The notes beneath the pieces are model-generated. The model was not told where the DNA came from. It made no database searches and worked only from the letters and a program-made list of their open reading frames with translations. The translations under genes and the position numbers were made by a program. Shown here piece by piece: positions 44,663 through 52,177 of a stretch of 64,000 nt of DNA. The stretch is taken from NCBI RefSeq assembly GCF_009650215.1, contig NZ_CP045851.1, positions 1,403,189 to 1,467,188 on the forward strand, written 5' to 3'. Every line of letters begins with the position of its first letter. The stretch's first letter is position 1. The stretch is from Actinomarinicola tropica (lineage in GTDB: Bacteria > Actinomycetota > Acidimicrobiia > Acidimicrobiales > SKKL01).

Positions 44663-45142
44663 CTAGGCCCTCCAGAGGAGGACCTGGCCCTCGCCGGTGG
44701 TCATCAGCGAGGCGGGTTGGACCCGCAGGCGGTCGGGGATGAGGCGCAGGATGCCGAACGCCGGGCTCGTCGGGCTGTCCCACGCAGGGATGATGGCCGG
44801 GTCGTAGCCGACGGGCGGTGACGCCTGCGCGAACCGCTGCCACCCCTTGGCCAAGGCGTCCTCGCTCGTCTGCCACTCGGCGGAGCACTCCGCGGTGCAG
44901 GTGTCCTGGTCCGGGCTCCAGTACGTGACCGACATCCGCGGCATCGCCGCGAGGTCGTGGGCCTTCGGCGACAGGGGAGAGGTGGCGATCCACCCGGTGA
45001 GCTGCGCGCCGCTCCACTCCCAGATCGGGTGGAGCACCCGCGTCCTCGGCCGGCCGCGGGGGTCGGTGGTCCCGGCGACGCACCACACGATGCGGTGCGC
45101 CATCTCCACGAACGCCGGCGCGACGGTCTCCAGTGCTGCCAT
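44663..45142 (-). CDS. Pyridoxamine 5'-phosphate oxidase-like split-barrel protein
   Basis: 159 residues from ATG 45142 (GAGGAGAG upstream). FMN-binding split barrel: RIVWCVAGTTDPRGRPRTRV and LTGWIATSPLSPKAHDLAAM. Conserved-looking CTAECSAEW and a C-terminal extension. Could be a flavin- or F420-binding oxidoreductase or heme-handling protein; substrate unknown. Convergent with the cation exchanger. Confidence 0.8.
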   Translation of the reverse strand: MAALETVAPAFVEMAHRIVWCVAGTTDPRGRPRTRVLHPIWEWSGAQLTGWIATSPLSPKAHDLAAMPRMSVTYWSPDQDTCTAECSAEWQTSEDALAKGWQRFAQASPPVGYDPAIIPAWDSPTSPAFGILRLIPDRLRVQPASLMTTGEGQVLLWRA

Positions 45143-45218
45143 GGTTGCTCTCCTCGCTCGCCCTGTCCGGAGCATGTCACAGGTGACCGGCGCCACTGCG
45201 GAGCGGGAGGGGGAGGAG

Positions 45219-45224
45219 TACCGT
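45219..45224 (+). promoter_or_regulatory. Candidate leaderless -10 of the DUF4097-cyclase pair
   Basis: TACCGT seven bases before GTG 45232; a purine-rich run (GGGAGGGGGAGGAG) lies just upstream of it, too far from the start for ribosome binding. Confidence 0.4.
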
Positions 45225-45231
45225 CCCCCTC

Positions 45232-45948
45232 GTGGGGGTCGAGAGCAGCGGAGAGGCGACCGTCGCCCGATCGGTCCGCATCTCGACGCGGTCGGGCCGC
45301 ATCGAGGTGGTGGCCGAGGCGCGCGACGACGTGGTGGTCGAGGGCGGCGCGGTCGATCCCGGCGACGCCCCCGACGGCGGGCCTGCGCAGCTCACGGTCA
45401 CCGGTGGGCACGACGCGGTGCGGGCCCGGGTGCCGACGGGGACCGACGTCGTGGTCGGCACCCGCTCGGGGCGGGTCGCGCTCACCGGCGAGCTCGGCGC
45501 GGTCGCCGTCACCACGGTCAGCGGCCGGGTGACGGTGCAATCGGCGCGGCGGGCCTCGGTCCGCACGGTGAGCGCCCGGGTCGAGGTCGAGATCTGCGAG
45601 GGAGAGGCGCGGGTCGACACCGTCAGCGGTCGCGTCGCCGTCGGGCGCGCCGGGTCGATCAAGGTCGCGACGAAGACCGGGCGCGTCCGGGTCGAGGCGG
45701 TCGACGGGGAGGTGCGGGCCCGATCCGTGGCCGGGCGGGTGACGATCGGCTACGTCGGCTCGACACCGCCCGACGTGAAGCTGGAGACCGTGAGCGGGCG
45801 CATCGAGCTCGAGGTGCCCGCCGGTGCCGCGCCCGTCCAGCGGTTCGCGTCGCGCTCCGGATCGATCCGGTCGACCGTCCCCCATGGCGAGACGGGGACG
45901 ATCGCGGCCCGCACGCTGAGCGGGGCGATCCGCGTCCGGGAGGCCTAG
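45232..45948 (+). CDS. DUF4097-like beta-helix protein without signal peptide
   Basis: 238 residues made almost wholly of short beta-strand repeats of the type TVSGRVTV, TVSARVEVE, TVSGRVAVG, TKTGRVRVE, SVAGRVTIG, TVSGRIELE and TLSGAIRV, spaced by 19-25 residues, as in DUF4097 putative adhesins and bactofilin-like solenoids. No signal peptide or membrane segment, so cytoplasmic if the start is right. One base... no gap: the cyclase GTG follows the TAG stop directly. Function unknown; could form a polymer or scaffold. Confidence 0.75.
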   Translation: MGVESSGEATVARSVRISTRSGRIEVVAEARDDVVVEGGAVDPGDAPDGGPAQLTVTGGHDAVRARVPTGTDVVVGTRSGRVALTGELGAVAVTTVSGRVTVQSARRASVRTVSARVEVEICEGEARVDTVSGRVAVGRAGSIKVATKTGRVRVEAVDGEVRARSVAGRVTIGYVGSTPPDVKLETVSGRIELEVPAGAAPVQRFASRSGSIRSTVPHGETGTIAARTLSGAIRVREA

Positions 45949-46527
45949 GTGGCGGTCGACGTGGCCGCCGACGCCGTCGTCGGCACGGTGGTGTTCACCG
46001 ACATCGTCGGCTTCACCGCGTTCACCGCCGACGAGGGCGACGACCGTGCGCTCGAGCTGCTGGCGGTCCAGGAGCGGGCGGTGGAGCGGCTGCTCCCGGA
46101 CGGGGCCCGGGTCGTCAAGGAGCTGGGGGACGGCCTCATGCTGTGGTTCCCCGACCCGGTCGGCGCGATCACCACCGCGCTGGCGCTGCACGCCACGCTC
46201 GCCGACCACGACCTCGACGGCTTCCCGCTGTGGATCCGTGCCGGTGCCCACCACGGCACGCAGCGACGGCGCCGCGACGACCTCCTCGGCCACGACGTCA
46301 ACGTCGCGGCCCGCATCGTCGACCTGGCCGGCCCCGGTGAGCTGCTCGTCTCGGAGGCCACCCGGCGCGCCATCGGTGGCGGGCTCGTCGACGTGGAGTT
46401 CCGGGAGGTCGGGCCGGTGTTCGTCAAGGGCCTCGCGGACCCGGTCTGGATCCACCACGTCGAGCCCCTCGACGACACGACTGTCGTCCCCGCGGACCCA
46501 CCCGCTGCGCCGGAGGGGGCCAGGTAG
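45949..46527 (+). CDS. Minimal class III adenylate cyclase
   Basis: 192 residues, a bare catalytic domain. Metal Asp in VFTDIVGFTAFT and in ELGDGLMLWF; adenine-selecting Lys in VVKELGDG and Asp in GHDVN; transition-state Asn and Arg in DVNVAARIVD. All catalytic residues are therefore present, which predicts cAMP synthesis as a homodimer. No HAMP, receiver or membrane part. It begins at the base after the DUF4097-like stop. Its TAG stop doubles as the start of the rimO -10 hexamer. Confidence 0.85.
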   Translation: MAVDVAADAVVGTVVFTDIVGFTAFTADEGDDRALELLAVQERAVERLLPDGARVVKELGDGLMLWFPDPVGAITTALALHATLADHDLDGFPLWIRAGAHHGTQRRRRDDLLGHDVNVAARIVDLAGPGELLVSEATRRAIGGGLVDVEFREVGPVFVKGLADPVWIHHVEPLDDTTVVPADPPAAPEGAR

Positions 46528-46530
46528 GCT
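46525..46530 (+). promoter_or_regulatory. Candidate leaderless -10 of rimO
   Basis: TAGGCT nine bases before the rimO ATG; its first three bases are the cyclase stop codon. Confidence 0.45.
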
Positions 46531-46539
46531 GTCGGGGCC

Positions 46540-47796
46540 ATGCCCCGCCGCTACTGGGTCGAGACGCTCGGCTGCCCCAAGAACCAGGTCGATTCGGACA
46601 AGCTCGTCGGGACGCTCCTCGCCGACGGCATGGTGCCGGCCGACTCGCCCGATGCCGCCGACCTCGTCGTCGTCAACACCTGCGCGTTCATCGAGGACGC
46701 CCGCCAGGAGTCGATCGACACGGTGCTGGCCCTGTCCGACGCACGTCGCGACGGCGCCGAGCTGGTGGTCACCGGGTGCATGGCCGAGCGCTACGGCGAC
46801 GAGCTCGCCGACGCGCTGCCCGAGGTCGACGCCGTCGCGGGGTTCGGCGTGCCCGTCACCCTCGGTCCCACCCGACGAGTCCCCGAGCTCGACCTGCTCA
46901 ACCTGCCCCGCCCGGCCTCCGCCGTGCCGTGGGCGTACGTGAAGGTCGCCGAGGGCTGCGACCGGGCCTGCGGGTTCTGCGCCATCCCCACGTTCCGGGG
47001 TCCCCAGCGGTCCCGCTCGATCGAGTCGATCCTCGCCGAGGTCGACCAGCTCGGCGTGCAGGAGGTCGTCCTCGTCGCCCAGGACCTCGCCGCCTTCGGC
47101 CGGGACCAGGGCGTCGGCGAGCGGGCCATCGTGCCGCTCGTCGAGGCCGTGTCCGCACGGGCGGCGCGGGTCCGGCTGCTCTACCTCTACCCGTCCGACC
47201 TCACCGACCAGCTGGTCGACGCCATCTGCGCCACCGGCGTGCCCTACTTCGACCTCAGCCTCCAGCACGTGTCGCGCCCGCTCCTGCGGAGGATGCGCCG
47301 CTGGGGCGACGGCGACCGCTTCCTCGACCGCATCCACGCCATCCGCGGGCGTGAGCCCGACGCCGCCTTCCGCTCCAACTTCATCGTCGGGTACCCGGGC
47401 GAGACCGAGGACGACCACGATGCGCTGCTGCGCTTCGTCGAGGCGGCCCAGCTCGACTGGTGCGGGTTCTTCTCCTACTCCCCGGAGGCCGGCACCTACG
47501 CCGCCGACCTCGACGGCCAGGTCGCGCCGGGGCTCGTGGCCGAGCGCCTCGCCGAGCTGTCCGAGCTGCAGGACGCCATCACCGCGCAGCGTCGGTCGGC
47601 GCTGATCGGCCGCACCGTCGAGGTCCTGGTGGACGAGCCGGGCGTCGGCCGCACCCACCGCGAGGCGCCCGAGATCGACGGCATCGTCACGGTGCCCACC
47701 GACCTCGTGCCGGGCGCGTTCCACACCGTCGAGGTCGTCGATTCGCTCGGCCCCGACCTCGAGGCGGTCGCCGCCACGATCGGGGCGCCGCGGTGA
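46540..47796 (+). CDS. rimO: Ribosomal protein S12 methylthiotransferase RimO
   Basis: 418 residues; radical SAM enzyme that methylthiolates Asp of S12. N-terminal UPF0004 cysteines in ETLGCPKNQVDSD, VVNTCAFIEDA and VTGCMAERYG; radical SAM motif CDRACGFCAIPTFRG; C-terminal TRAM domain (about 350-418). GCPKNxVDS separates RimO from MiaB. Its stop overlaps the pgsA GTG. Confidence 0.95.
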   Translation: MPRRYWVETLGCPKNQVDSDKLVGTLLADGMVPADSPDAADLVVVNTCAFIEDARQESIDTVLALSDARRDGAELVVTGCMAERYGDELADALPEVDAVAGFGVPVTLGPTRRVPELDLLNLPRPASAVPWAYVKVAEGCDRACGFCAIPTFRGPQRSRSIESILAEVDQLGVQEVVLVAQDLAAFGRDQGVGERAIVPLVEAVSARAARVRLLYLYPSDLTDQLVDAICATGVPYFDLSLQHVSRPLLRRMRRWGDGDRFLDRIHAIRGREPDAAFRSNFIVGYPGETEDDHDALLRFVEAAQLDWCGFFSYSPEAGTYAADLDGQVAPGLVAERLAELSELQDAITAQRRSALIGRTVEVLVDEPGVGRTHREAPEIDGIVTVPTDLVPGAFHTVEVVDSLGPDLEAVAATIGAPR

Positions 47797-48368
47797 CCGA
47801 CACCGCCTTCGGCCCGAGCGCGCTCGCCACCCCGGCGAACTACGTGACGATCGCCCGCTTGCTCCTCTCGCCCCTGCTCTTCGTGGCCATCGCCGACGGC
47901 GGCGCAGGGTGGCTGATCTTCGCCGTCTGGACCGCCCTCTGCCTCACCGACGGGGTGGACGGCTACCTCGCCCGGCGCCACGGCACCACGCGCTCCGGGG
48001 CATTCCTCGACCCGCTCGCCGACAAGGTGCTGGTTCTCGGCGCTCTCGTCGCCCTCGTGGCCATCGAGCGCTTCACGTGGCTGCCCGTGCTCCTCATCGC
48101 CGCCCGCGAGGTCGCGATCAGCATGTACCGCTCGTACTGGGCCCGCCGAGGCGTCTCGATCCCCGCGCGTCGCAGCGCCAAGCTGAAGACCGTCACCCAG
48201 CAGTTCGCCGTGGCGTTCGCGCTCCTCCCGCCGATCGCCGACGACCCGGCCTGGGTCGCCGACACCACCCTGTGGGCCGCGGTGGGGCTCACGCTGGGGA
48301 CGGGCGCGCAGTACCTCTACGACGGGTCCCGGGCGGCGGCCCCGGCCGGCGCGCCGCCGTCGGTCTGA
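47793..48368 (+). CDS. pgsA: CDP-diacylglycerol-glycerol-3-phosphate 3-phosphatidyltransferase
   Basis: 191 residues with about four to five membrane segments. CDP-alcohol transferase motif in TDGVDGYLARRHGTTRSG plus AFLDPLADK: the stretch between AR and G is seven residues rather than the eight of E. coli PgsA. N-terminal TPANYVTIARLLLSPLLF is typical of PgsA. GTG overlaps the rimO stop. Makes phosphatidylglycerol phosphate; a related phosphatidyltransferase role cannot be excluded. Confidence 0.9.
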   Translation: MTDTAFGPSALATPANYVTIARLLLSPLLFVAIADGGAGWLIFAVWTALCLTDGVDGYLARRHGTTRSGAFLDPLADKVLVLGALVALVAIERFTWLPVLLIAAREVAISMYRSYWARRGVSIPARRSAKLKTVTQQFAVAFALLPPIADDPAWVADTTLWAAVGLTLGTGAQYLYDGSRAAAPAGAPPSV

Positions 48369-48371
48369 GCC

Positions 48372-50888
48372 TCACGCGTCGCCCGACGCCGTGCCTCTGT
48401 GGCGCGTGCGGATCCGGTCGAGCTGCTCGGCGACGACCTCGTCCGACAGTCGGCTCGGGGCGTCGGTGCGGTAGCGGCAGGCGACGGCCGGCAGCTCGAG
48501 CGGCGGCCGGTCGCTGGTGAGGCGCAGCAGCAGGTCCCAGTCCTCCGCGTAGGTGAGCGTCTCGTCGAAGCGGGCCTCGGGAAGCCCCGCCCGGTGGGCG
48601 ATCGCGCCGATGTCGGTGATCATGCCCTCCTCGAGGGTCGCCCGGTCGTACGCCGCGAACTGCAACCACGGCCAGCCCCGACCGGGGAGCCCGTGGACGC
48701 GGTCGTGGTCGTCGATGAGCCGCGCCCCGTAGAGCACCTGGGCATCGGGGTGGGACTCGAAGGCCCCGACGACGGCGTGGAGCCACTCGGGGTCGAGCTC
48801 GTTGTCGTCGTCGAGGTAGGCGACGATCTCTCCGGTTGCGGCCGCCAGGCCGACGTTGCGGGCCCCCGACAAGCCGGGCTCCGGGTGGTGCACCACGTGG
48901 ATCCGGTGGTCGGGGAGCTCGGCGAGCGCGGCGCGCGTCGCGCCGCCGCCGTCGTCGCCGTTGTCGACCACGACCAGCTCCCAGTGCGGGTAGCGCTGGG
49001 CGCACACCGAGCGGACCGCCCGGGGGAGGACCTCGGGACGGTGGCGGGTGGCCAGGATCACCGAGACGAGCGCACCGGACGCCGGGACCGGCTCCGCGGC
49101 CAGCCAGTGCATCGTGCGCCAGACCAGCGACTCCCGCTCGAGCTGGGCGACCCGCTCGTCGAGGCCGGCCACCGCGATCGCCGACCTGCCCGGAGCCGCC
49201 TCCACCTCCGGCACCTCGGCGCCCGGCTCGGGGCTCGCGGGGCGGGGCCGTCGGGCCAGTCGCTGCGACGCCAGGGCGCCGGAGCGCGCCGCGACCGACG
49301 GGACGAGGTCGTCGCGCGGGCTGCCGTCGACGTCGCCGAGGCGGTGGCCGAGCGCAGCGGCGACCGTCGGCGCCACCTCGTGGGACAGGAGCGGCCGGTC
49401 GCGGTGGCCGGGGGAGATGCCCGGGCCGGTCGCGAGGAAGAGCCCTCGCTCGTGGTGGTCGCCGGTGCGCCAGTGCTCGTAGGGCACGACGACGGTGCCG
49501 ATCGTCGGCGACCACACCCGCTCCAGGAGGGAGCTGCGGTTCCACTCGACCAGCAGGTCGGGGAAGTCGTCCACCTCCTGGCGAGGGAACACGTCGTCGG
49601 TCCGCACGACGTCGAGGACGGCGGGCTCGCCGGTGTCGACGTCGACGAGCTCGAGCAGGTCGGCACGGAGCCGCTCGAGGACCCGGTCGAGCTCGCGACC
49701 CGGCGCGACCCGTCCGTGGCGCTCCCGTCCCAGGAGGTTCACGCGCACGCCCCCGGCGGGGGAGTTGTTCGGGACGTCGTAGAACGTGCGGCCCGCCCGG
49801 CCGACGGCGTCGAGGTCGGGGTTCGGCGCGGGAGGGGCCGAGCTGATGCGGCGACGGACGAGGGGCGCCAGGTGCGGGGTGACGCGTCGCTCGAGCGCCA
49901 GCGGGAGCCGACCGATCGTCATCCCGGCGAGGCGCGTGCGGCGGCCGACCGGTGCGGCGCCGCGGTGGGCCAGGTCGAGGCGCCACAGGATGTGGTCGAG
50001 CATGTGGGTGCCGTCGAAGTGGGGGCCCATCCCGTGGGTGAGGTGGACGTAGACGGTGGTGTCGTCGTCGACCCGTTCGAGGTGGGCGCCGAGCCCCTCG
50101 TCGAGCAGCTCGTAGACCGCGACGAGCGGGTCGCCGAGCAGCTCGGCACGCGTGGGGTCGTGCCACGGGTGGCCGGGGTCGTGCACGTGCCAGAACTGGT
50201 GGCCGACGCAGTGCGACTCCCCGTAGACCGTGAGGAACCACGACCAGTCGCCTTGGTCGAGGAGGTGGAGCGACGCCGCCGTCTTCCGTCGGATGCCCTC
50301 CTTCAGGTCCTCGAACAAGGCGAGGTCCTCGCCCGGGGTGCGGTGCAGGCCGGCGCGGTGGTGGTAGTCGCACGCCGCGAACGCGGGTGTCCCGCCGGGG
50401 CCGGGGGAGGTGCCGACCGGGTGGGGTCCGAACCGCTCGGAGAGCTGCCCGACCAGCTCGGGCGGGTGGGACTGGGTGGCGAAGTGCCGGTCGTGGCACC
50501 CCCACTCGGCGACGAGGACGCCGTCGAGGTCCGGCGTCGGGAAGATGTGCGGTGCATCGATGACCGCGACGCGGTGGCCCGCACCGCTGAGGGCGTCCCA
50601 GACGCGCGTGCCGACCGTGTCACGAGGGGTCGTGTCCCGCCACTCGTAGGTGTGCCGGTCCACCTTGGCCCAGCAGTAGTACTCGTGGTTGGTCGGGAGG
50701 CGACCGGTGAACATCGACGTCCAGTGCGCCCCCACGTAGACGCCGCGCGGCCCGACGGTGTCGACGACCGCGCCACGCTCGAGGAGCGACGCCAGGTGCG
50801 GCATCCGCCCCTCCTCGGCCAGGCGGCGGGCGATGTCCGCGTCGCAGGCGTCGAACGCGACGTGGAGGAGGCGCGCGGGGGCTGTCAT
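48372..50888 (-). CDS. Alkaline-phosphatase-superfamily domain fused to GT2 glycosyltransferase
   Basis: 838 residues, no signal peptide or membrane segment. The N-terminal 550 residues resemble type I phosphodiesterase/sulfatase-like enzymes: LLHVAFDACDADIARRL, GRMPHLASLLERGAV, a nucleophile region GAHWTSMFTGRLPTNHE, SHCVGHQFWH, LTHGMGPHFDGTHML (where SDHG is usual) and a C-terminal SHEVAPTVAAALG. A linker of about 60 residues leads to a GT2 domain (about 595-838): VSVILATRHRPEVLPRAV, VVVDNGDDGG, ARNVGLAAATGEIVAYLDDD and AEDWDLLLRL. ATG 50888 is preceded by TAGCGT. It interrupts the usual pgsA-cinA neighbourhood. Role unknown; perhaps synthesis or trimming of a surface glycan. Confidence 0.78.
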   Translation of the reverse strand: MTAPARLLHVAFDACDADIARRLAEEGRMPHLASLLERGAVVDTVGPRGVYVGAHWTSMFTGRLPTNHEYYCWAKVDRHTYEWRDTTPRDTVGTRVWDALSGAGHRVAVIDAPHIFPTPDLDGVLVAEWGCHDRHFATQSHPPELVGQLSERFGPHPVGTSPGPGGTPAFAACDYHHRAGLHRTPGEDLALFEDLKEGIRRKTAASLHLLDQGDWSWFLTVYGESHCVGHQFWHVHDPGHPWHDPTRAELLGDPLVAVYELLDEGLGAHLERVDDDTTVYVHLTHGMGPHFDGTHMLDHILWRLDLAHRGAAPVGRRTRLAGMTIGRLPLALERRVTPHLAPLVRRRISSAPPAPNPDLDAVGRAGRTFYDVPNNSPAGGVRVNLLGRERHGRVAPGRELDRVLERLRADLLELVDVDTGEPAVLDVVRTDDVFPRQEVDDFPDLLVEWNRSSLLERVWSPTIGTVVVPYEHWRTGDHHERGLFLATGPGISPGHRDRPLLSHEVAPTVAAALGHRLGDVDGSPRDDLVPSVAARSGALASQRLARRPRPASPEPGAEVPEVEAAPGRSAIAVAGLDERVAQLERESLVWRTMHWLAAEPVPASGALVSVILATRHRPEVLPRAVRSVCAQRYPHWELVVVDNGDDGGGATRAALAELPDHRIHVVHHPEPGLSGARNVGLAAATGEIVAYLDDDNELDPEWLHAVVGAFESHPDAQVLYGARLIDDHDRVHGLPGRGWPWLQFAAYDRATLEEGMITDIGAIAHRAGLPEARFDETLTYAEDWDLLLRLTSDRPPLELPAVACRYRTDAPSRLSDEVVAEQLDRIRTRHRGTASGDA

Positions 50889-50920: not shown

Positions 50921-52177
50921 ATGCGCTGCGAAGTCGTCGCCGTCGGGACGGAGCTGCTCCTCGGGCAGATCGTCGACACCAACTCGTCCTGGATCGGTGA
51001 GCAGCTGGCCCTGGCCGGCATCGACAGCCACTTCCAGACCAAGGTGGGCGACAACCGCGACCGGATCGCCAGCAGCCTGCGGCAGGCACTCGAGCGCAGC
51101 GACGCCGTCGTGGTGTGCGGTGGCCTCGGCCCGACGCAGGACGACATCACCCGCGACGTCATCGCCGAGGTGATGGGCGTCGAGCTCCTCCACGACGAGG
51201 CCATCGAGGCGCGCATCCGGGCGATGTTCGGCTCGCGGGGACGGGCGATGTCGGCGAACAACCTCCGCCAGGCACAGGTGCCGGCGGGTGCGACCACCAT
51301 CCCGCAGATGCCCGGCACCGCGCCGGGGCTCGTGTGCCCCATGCCGCCGGGCCACGCGCACGAGGGCAAGGTCATCTACGCCGTCCCCGGCGTCCCCGCC
51401 GAGATGCGGGAGATGGTGGCGGGCACGGTCGTCCCCGACCTGCAGCGCCGTGCTGGGGTCACGTCGGTGATCGCCAGCCGCACCCTGCGGACGTGGGGCC
51501 AGTCCGAGTCCGGCCTCGCCGAGATGCTGCACGACGAGATCGAGCGGCTCGACCGCGAGCCCGGCGCCACGATCGCCTTCCTGGCGAGCGGCATCGAGGG
51601 GATCAAGGTCCGCCTCACGGCGAAGGCGGCCACCGCCGCGGAGGCCGAGGAGGTCATCGCCGCCGAGGAGGCCGTCGTCCGGTCGATCATCGGCGACATC
51701 GTCTTCGGGGTCGACGACGAGACGATGGAGCACGCCGTCGTGTCGCTGCTCGCCGAGCAGGGCCTCACGCTCGCGGTCGCGGAGTCGGTCACCGGCGGTC
51801 TCATCGGCTCCCGCATCACCAACGTGCCCGGCGCGTCGAAGGTGTTCCGAGGGGGCGTCGTCGCCTACGCCTCCGACGTGAAGTTCTCGGTGCTCGGCGT
51901 GCCCGAGGGCCCGGTCGTCACCGAGGAGTGCGCTCGGGCCATGGCCGACGGCGTGCGCAAGGTCCTCGGCGCCGACGTGGGGCTCGGCGTCACGGGCGTG
52001 GCCGGGCCCGACGCGCAGGAGGACCTGCCCCCGGGCACGGTGTTCTTCGGCCTCGCCATCGGCGACCGCGTGGAGTCGCGACCGGTGCGCATGCCGGGCG
52101 ATCGGGAGCGCATCCGGGCGTTCTCCACCATCGGGCTCCTCAACTGGCTGCGCCGCCGCCTGCTCGACCTGGAGTAG
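50921..52177 (+). CDS. cinA: CinA-family protein (competence/damage-inducible; NMN deamidase domain)
   Basis: 418 residues. N-terminal MoCF-like COG1058 domain (VVAVGTELLLGQIVDTNSSW, GGLGPTQDDITRDV, VPGVPAEMREM) and C-terminal PncC nicotinamide-nucleotide amidase domain with AVAESVTGGLIGSRITNVPG and GVTGVAGPDAQ. Recycles pyridine nucleotides in relatives. Usually follows pgsA; here the fusion gene intervenes. Confidence 0.94.
   Translation: MRCEVVAVGTELLLGQIVDTNSSWIGEQLALAGIDSHFQTKVGDNRDRIASSLRQALERSDAVVVCGGLGPTQDDITRDVIAEVMGVELLHDEAIEARIRAMFGSRGRAMSANNLRQAQVPAGATTIPQMPGTAPGLVCPMPPGHAHEGKVIYAVPGVPAEMREMVAGTVVPDLQRRAGVTSVIASRTLRTWGQSESGLAEMLHDEIERLDREPGATIAFLASGIEGIKVRLTAKAATAAEAEEVIAAEEAVVRSIIGDIVFGVDDETMEHAVVSLLAEQGLTLAVAESVTGGLIGSRITNVPGASKVFRGGVVAYASDVKFSVLGVPEGPVVTEECARAMADGVRKVLGADVGLGVTGVAGPDAQEDLPPGTVFFGLAIGDRVESRPVRMPGDRERIRAFSTIGLLNWLRRRLLDLE

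Follow-up and report, generated by a model that had tools for sequence, protein, structure and literature searches.

We describe a gene of Actinomarinicola tropica (RefSeq assembly GCF_009650215.1, contig NZ_CP045851.1) that joins a domain of the alkaline phosphatase (AP) superfamily, altered at its active site, to a family 2 glycosyltransferase (GT2) domain in one chain. It lies at positions 48372-50888 on the minus strand of the window, by which we mean the whole stretch of 64,000 nucleotides analysed (contig positions 1,403,189 to 1,467,188), and the same full-length fusion is present in six other actinobacterial genomes. The AP-fold domain has lost the nucleophile and two metal ligands of its superfamily, and its standalone relatives are frequently neighbours of GT2 genes. 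We tentatively favour, at a little short of an even chance, a cytoplasmic two-domain protein of glycan assembly, whose rewired AP-fold domain would form no covalent phospho-enzyme and would instead use a one-metal, three-histidine site to hold a ligand for the GT2 domain.

AP-superfamily enzymes carry out textbook phospho- and sulfo-chemistry from one nucleophile and two metals. The subfamily described here spans several phyla and usually has no nucleophile, yet its site is conserved and it often stands beside glycosyltransferases, in some genomes within one chain. Should the domain bind, GT2 enzymes would gain a module of a new type for handling donor or acceptor; should it catalyse, a classic fold would turn out to support a new mechanism. 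In both cases, certain proteins labelled as phosphodiesterases in glycan loci would be misread. Further, the fusion holds both partners at fixed stoichiometry, which is useful for experiment. The fold and the GT2 domain are both known, and the altered site, as judged from sequence, matches no family that could be tested. A literature search, mostly outside subscription journals, returned no paper on an AP-GT2 fusion or on a rewired subfamily, and none pairing PF01663 with PF00535. Together, the results point to the rewired domain as a candidate partner, not described before, for building cell-surface sugars.

Architecture and reading frame of the fusion

The gene is a single open frame from ATG to TGA encoding 838 residues, divided into an AP-superfamily domain (residues 1-535; positions 49284-50888), a linker (residues 536-604; 49077-49283) and a GT2 domain (residues 605-838; 48375-49076), all on the minus strand. 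PF01663 matched residues 8-477 at 48.1 bits (cut-off 23) and PF00535 matched residues 609-737 at 101 bits (cut-off 23.3); with both domains above cut-off in one 838-codon frame, the two-domain fusion that the original prediction had described from the letters alone was confirmed. An AlphaFold2 model from a 37-row alignment (mean pLDDT 83.1, pTM 0.66) was mostly confident in both domains, with residues 536-580 of the linker below pLDDT 50 and a helix at 576-598 running into the GT2 domain. In fold comparisons, the N-terminal part matched cobra venom phosphodiesterase 5gz5 (Z 24.7, 355 residues, rmsd 4.0), NPP3 (Z 24.5) and Xac NPP 2gsn (Z 24.0), and the C-terminal part matched K4CP (Z 23.6, 230 residues, rmsd 3.1) and WrtF (Z 23.3).

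The C-terminal domain carries what identifies a GT2 enzyme, namely the PF00535 profile, a GT-A fold, and a DxD motif followed by an acidic motif. The DxD motif, YLDDDN (residues 691-696; 48801-48818, minus strand), is presumably the donor- and metal-binding element, and the acidic motif, AEDWDLL (48528-48548, minus strand; AEDWD at residues 781-785), lies where we would expect the GT2 base. The DDD motif (within YLDDDN), LTHGMG (residues 283-288) and GESH (223-226), on which the first description of the gene relied, are all located in the translated protein.

Codon usage learned from the window's other genes favoured the fusion frame in all eight full 100-codon blocks, linker included, while both other frames of the same strand were strongly negative; in the short final block (codon 801 to the end) frame 0 was neutral (-0.7) and the other frames were negative. 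The host genome is a single contig of 3,715,454 bases, 98.84% complete. NCBIfam listed 21 families for the protein, all under their curated cut-offs, and none of its five Pfam matches (E up to 1) is to a HAD family.

Membrane helices usually reach a hydropathy of about 1.6. The highest 19-residue Kyte-Doolittle mean in the fusion was 1.48, with 0.63 over start positions 1-20, and no segment thus reaches membrane-helix level; the absence of a membrane or export signal, claimed at the outset, holds, and because of this low peak the protein should, from its sequence, be cytoplasmic. A phosphotransferase resembling LtaS or EptA, which are membrane-bound or exported enzymes, was rejected for want of a hydrophobic segment.

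A phosphatase fold without its nucleophile

Seven residues, D168, T206, D326, H330, D373, H374 and H483, hold the two zincs of NPP3 and are described as strictly conserved in the NPP and AP families (PMC6052110). At the corresponding positions the window protein has, in the same order, Asp13, Val52, His226, His230, Thr284, His285 and His478, four of which are kept. Asp13 (50850-50852) and His478 (49455-49457) are retained metal ligands, whereas Val52 (50733-50735) occupies the place of the Thr/Ser nucleophile; within the GESHCVGHQFWH motif (50187-50222) His226 replaces an Asp ligand and His230 is kept, and within the LTHGMGPHFDGTH motif (50004-50042) Thr284 replaces an Asp and His285 is kept (all minus strand). 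The register was set by three alignments: to a phosphonoacetate hydrolase profile, by hhalign to a canonical relative, and by profile alignment of the survey proteins. Val52 aligned with the phosphonoacetate hydrolase Thr (Ala in a second deposited sequence, 3t02) in the profile alignment, and hhalign gave the same register at E 4e-50. The protein therefore has Val52 instead of the Thr/Ser (or formylglycine) nucleophile of the superfamily, and it departs from the NPP3-like two-metal site of three Asp and three His by the changes Asp326 to His226 and Asp373 to Thr284.

These changes extend beyond the window. Val occupies the nucleophile position in all seven fused proteins. For the wider family, we surveyed 397 genomes of the order (AP-domain match at E <= 1e-12) and 396 of the phylum (E <= 1e-20), reading part of the matching genomes in detail, and, after removal of four duplicate loci (L065, L070, L075, L076), classed the proteins as canonical or rewired by the strings SDHG and HxxGH, which fixes those residues by construction but leaves the nucleophile column and the GT2 neighbourhood free. 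That column held Ser or Thr in 24 of 25 canonical SDHG proteins (the remaining one a gap) and Ser in 3 of 22 HxxGH/HCxGH proteins. Seven further proteins, in neither class, had Ala (three), Ser (two), Pro (one) or a gap (one), with a GT2 gene at one of their seven loci.

A genome_contigs scan with alignment A2 (12 rows, gathered without a motif filter) gave 49 loci, and 36 of these plus the window form alignment A3 (37 rows); cut sequences, near-copies and loci not chosen were left out (L131, L133, L137, L140, L141, L158, L162, L163, L164, L166, L167, L168, L170). Position 52 across A3 is Val in 12 rows, Pro in 12, Ala in 6, Ser in 3, Glu in 2, and Thr and Gly in 1 each. His226, Cys227 and His230 are invariant in A2 (12/12), their invariance in the genome_contigs rows of A3 being by construction, as those rows were found by an HC[AV]GH pattern; Cys227 is absent from the five wider rewired relatives of alignment A1, which have Thr, Ser or Val instead. 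Outside the seven NPP positions, A3 contains newly conserved residues, His132 (37/37), Cys173 (36/37) and Glu224 (33/37), and Asp237 is present in 36 of 37 rows with one gap. Among the kept ligands, His285 is found in 33/37 and Asp13 is replaced by Glu in 2/37. Five standalone rewired relatives scanned against NCBIfam gave no match at E up to 0.01. By these alignments, nucleophile loss and altered ligands appear as a trait of a widespread subfamily, usually without a nucleophile, and not of the window protein alone. The altered metal site of the original prediction accordingly stands at positions 226 and 284, but the change was understated, in that the nucleophile is gone as well and the alteration is subfamily-wide.

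Separately, two more distant relatives (L042, 8764-10296; L043, 8487-10034) have also lost His285, with SPVGM for SDHGM, and are flanked by GT2-like frames. Another locus (L041, G004:C254, 1029-7292) holds four tandem AP-superfamily frames, all with SDHG and two with a clear Ser/Thr nucleophile motif; the fourth is truncated where the contig ends.

Recurrent pairing with GT2 genes

Within 1.5-kb flanks or in the same frame, GT2 occurred at 13 of 22 rewired loci, whereas of the 23 canonical loci 1 had it (Fisher p = 7.5e-5). The two sets differ in taxa, since the order survey supplied most of the rewired loci and the phylum survey most of the canonical ones. With the fusions of G365 and G650 removed, the rewired count is 11 of 20. 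Among the 49 genome_contigs loci, scanned with a GT2 profile built from the seven fused domains and two neighbours, GT2 was fused in 5 and within 1 kb in 20 more (25/49). As a yardstick rather than a control, 21 GT2 matches were counted over the 3.72 Mb of the window genome. At five loci (L132, L136, L137, L154, L156) the GT2 match lies 16-27 bp from the AP frame, an operon-like spacing. Of two standalone relatives, L138 has Pfam matches nearby to a PF02397 sugar transferase, a GT2 and a sulfotransferase, and L167 to a PF01943 polysaccharide biosynthesis protein and a group-1 glycosyltransferase. Because GT2 genes so often stand beside rewired genes, we take the fusion to be the culmination of an established partnership between the AP domain and GT2.

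Genome G033 has two loci (L044, 8394-11723; L045, 327-3331) at which an AP-fold gene and a distinct GT2 gene directly downstream of it share a strand, once with one stop codon between the two and once with the genes overlapping. Judged by sequence, these pairs represent the unfused state of the same domain pair in more distant relatives.

Distribution and origin of the fusion

The original prediction had proposed surveying which genomes carry the same fusion, and this gave seven fused genomes, the window genome included, all Actinomycetota and all in one clade. An AP-domain match was found in 19 of the 397 genomes of the order survey, with the complete fusion verified in two (the window genome and G365, locus L077) and two more close relatives (G003, G100) cut by contig ends. 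The phylum survey gave matches in 37 of 396 genomes, with the fusion verified in the window genome and G650 (L125), and the genome_contigs scan with A2 yielded five complete fusions (L123, L124, L125, L126, L128). A genome_contigs scan with the fusion protein alone gave 26 pattern matches and confirmed no relative among them.

The seven fused rows grouped together with three contig-cut ones in a tree of 45 rows (support 100/99), and a single origin of the AP-GT2 fusion is therefore the simplest reading of the sequences. As a tree label, "fused" needed four changes, and shuffled labels did equally well in 346 of 500 trials, because the contig-cut rows carry another label yet sit among the fused ones.

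The other fused genes read lie at other loci and not between pgsA and cinA, the neighbours of the window gene. L126 and L128 have a common order of Lon-type protease, fusion, small gene (PF05637 in L128) and short-chain dehydrogenase/reductase (SDR), and the cut-short L124 has the protease too. At both L126 (3978-12111) and L128 (3901-11974), a sulfatase (PF00884 in L128) is divergent from the protease that precedes the fusion.

Mobile elements were also searched. A viral_contigs scan returned three pattern matches, none a relative, and lent no support to a viral origin. The plasmid search returned 32 records, all below 60% identity (at most 28.5% among the 15 matches listed) and mostly haloarchaeal genes named "alkaline phosphatase family protein". 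Three plasmid neighbourhoods were read; on two haloarchaeal plasmids (L173, L174), AP-superfamily genes lie near glycosyltransferase, polysaccharide deacetylase and Gfo/Idh/MocA genes, in an order common to two genera.

Possible function of the rewired domain

In the mechanism that we favour, the C-terminal GT2 domain would use a nucleotide sugar to glycosylate an acceptor, and the N-terminal NPP/AP-fold domain, minus its Thr nucleophile and two Asp ligands, would bypass the classical covalent phospho-enzyme. One metal is probably kept in a three-histidine site (His226, His230, His478), with Asp13 and His285 nearby, and we infer that this site holds a phosphorylated or sugar ligand, for instance the nucleotide-sugar donor or a phosphorylated acceptor, close to the GT2 domain, with which the AP-fold domain would cooperate. 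There is some parallel in NPP3, as crystals of its T206A mutant contained UDP-GlcNAc and the enzyme is described as regulating the activity of glycosyltransferases by way of UDP-GlcNAc (PMC6052110). Several observations weigh against a ligand-holding role in glycan assembly. GT2 is missing within 1 kb at 24 of the 49 genome_contigs loci (4 of the 24 being cut just 3' of the domain), and the fused genes read sit outside polysaccharide clusters, with a Lon-type protease, SDRs and a sulfatase as neighbours and, in the window, housekeeping genes. The near-invariant His132, Cys173 and Glu224 would fit catalysis better than plain binding. Finally, loss of the Thr need not abolish hydrolysis, as a room-temperature soak of NPP3 T206A crystals with AMPNPP revealed nothing but the product AMP (PMC6052110).

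The last two points bear on the main rival reading, in which the rewired domain is a true enzyme working non-covalently. Its three-His metal would activate either water or the hydroxyl of a sugar to attack, directly and in line, a bond to phosphate or sulfate or a glycosyl bond, and would thereby edit the product or donor of the fused GT2. This is quite possible, although we lean against it. The apparent AMP formation by Thr-less NPP3 (PMC6052110), the unfiltered invariance of His226, Cys227 and His230, the position of L138 in one line of genes with a GT2 and a sulfotransferase, and the retention of His132, Cys173, Glu224 and Asp237 across several phyla, a polar conservation typical of catalysis, all speak for such an enzyme; the variation of His285, the occasional Glu for Asp13, the constructed invariance of HC[AV]GH in A3 and the loss of Cys227 in the wider relatives of A1 do not. 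That a branch of the AP superfamily has given up its covalent nucleophile, rebuilt the metal site around three histidines with newly conserved His, Cys and Glu, and now performs a reaction novel for the fold, as a partner of GT2 in glycan assembly and in some actinobacteria fused to it, seems rather unlikely, if worth keeping in mind. A degenerate domain serving as scaffold only, for example in dimerisation or docking of the GT2 domain, would explain the lost nucleophile and ligands and the further loss of His285 in L042 and L043, but a plain scaffold has no need of the polar residues around the old site, which are among the most conserved of the subfamily, and we regard it as improbable.

Quite improbable, too, is a classical AP-superfamily phosphodiesterase, phosphatase or phosphotransferase with an unusual nucleophile, trimming or adding a phospho group on a glycan. 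The PF01663 match, the NPP fold and the four catalytic residues kept out of seven suit it, and a chain combining glycosyltransferase and phosphatase exists in Cj1432 of Campylobacter jejuni (PMC12096443); set against these are the Val of all fused proteins, Ser or Thr at that position in only 4 of 37 A3 rows, and the replacement of two Asp ligands. We set classical hydrolysis and ping-pong transfer low because the phospho-enzyme of the classical cycle cannot arise without the Thr, and with Val52 in its place, the trimming or transfer by such chemistry raised by the original prediction becomes unlikely. An artefact, in which two genes were joined by a sequencing or assembly error, is hardly conceivable: nothing in the window speaks for it, and the nearest hint is the G033 pairs, separate neighbours once parted by one stop codon, whereas coding statistics are continuous over the joint and the fusion recurs in six further genomes. 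A frame error or chimera was rejected on these grounds, and a known characterised family, the other finding that could have overturned the claim, did not emerge either, as Pfam, NCBIfam and the literature searched gave no named family that covers the whole protein above a curated cut-off.

The protein can also be set beside known systems. It shares with the NPP/ENPP family (PF01663) the fold (Z 24.7 to 5gz5) and four of seven active-site residues, and differs in having no Thr nucleophile, His for Asp326, Thr for Asp373, no export signal, and a fused GT2. Canonical AP-superfamily relatives of the same phylum (e.g., L041) match it by profile over 473 columns (E 4e-50), but they keep the Thr/Ser nucleophile and both Asp, and GT2 is nearby at just the one locus of 23 noted above. 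Phosphonoacetate hydrolase PhnA is the best sequence-profile match among solved structures (E 1.4e-8, or 5.1e-12 with the wider profile A1), yet has Thr where the window protein has Val52, and no GT2 fusion. On the glycosyltransferase side, SpsA, AvpGT, WrtF and K4CP (chondroitin polymerase) have the same PF00535 domain, GT-A fold, and DxD and acidic motifs, whereas their solved-chain descriptions name no AP-fold domain.

Cj1432 is related in concept: one domain adds ribose-5-phosphate, an HAD domain removes the phosphate, and a glucuronosyltransferase is present in addition (PMC12096443). Glycosyl transfer is thus joined to a phosphate-handling domain in one chain, a role that is putative for the AP-fold domain of the window protein, and the difference lies in the fold, Cj1432 having an HAD phosphatase of demonstrated activity (PMC12096443). 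Since Cj1432 carries both activities, the general idea of an enzyme that adds and trims on a glycan, presented as new in the original prediction, has a precedent (PMC12096443), and what remains distinct is the AP-fold variant.

The pgsA-cinA locus

In the window, the fusion gene stands between pgsA (47793-48368, plus strand), which converges on it with a 3-bp gap to its stop codon, and cinA (50921-52177, plus strand), which diverges from it with 32 bp between start codons. The proposed insertion between these genes was borne out, as pgsA and cinA are directly adjacent, with no room for a gene, in five of six related genomes checked (G001, of the same genus, and G002, G003, G004 and G006); for G005, the sixth, the stretch available beside cinA contained no pgsA. 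Given this adjacency, including in G001, the fusion gene most simply entered the locus after divergence from G001. Composition lends no support to a recent foreign gene, with GC at 74.7% and GC3 at 95.5% against gene means of 72.7% and 95.5%. Elsewhere in the window, a 1006-residue open frame on the minus strand (44704-47724) runs antisense to rimO and its neighbours; codon statistics favour the plus-strand genes, and the frame looks like a GC-rich shadow open reading frame.

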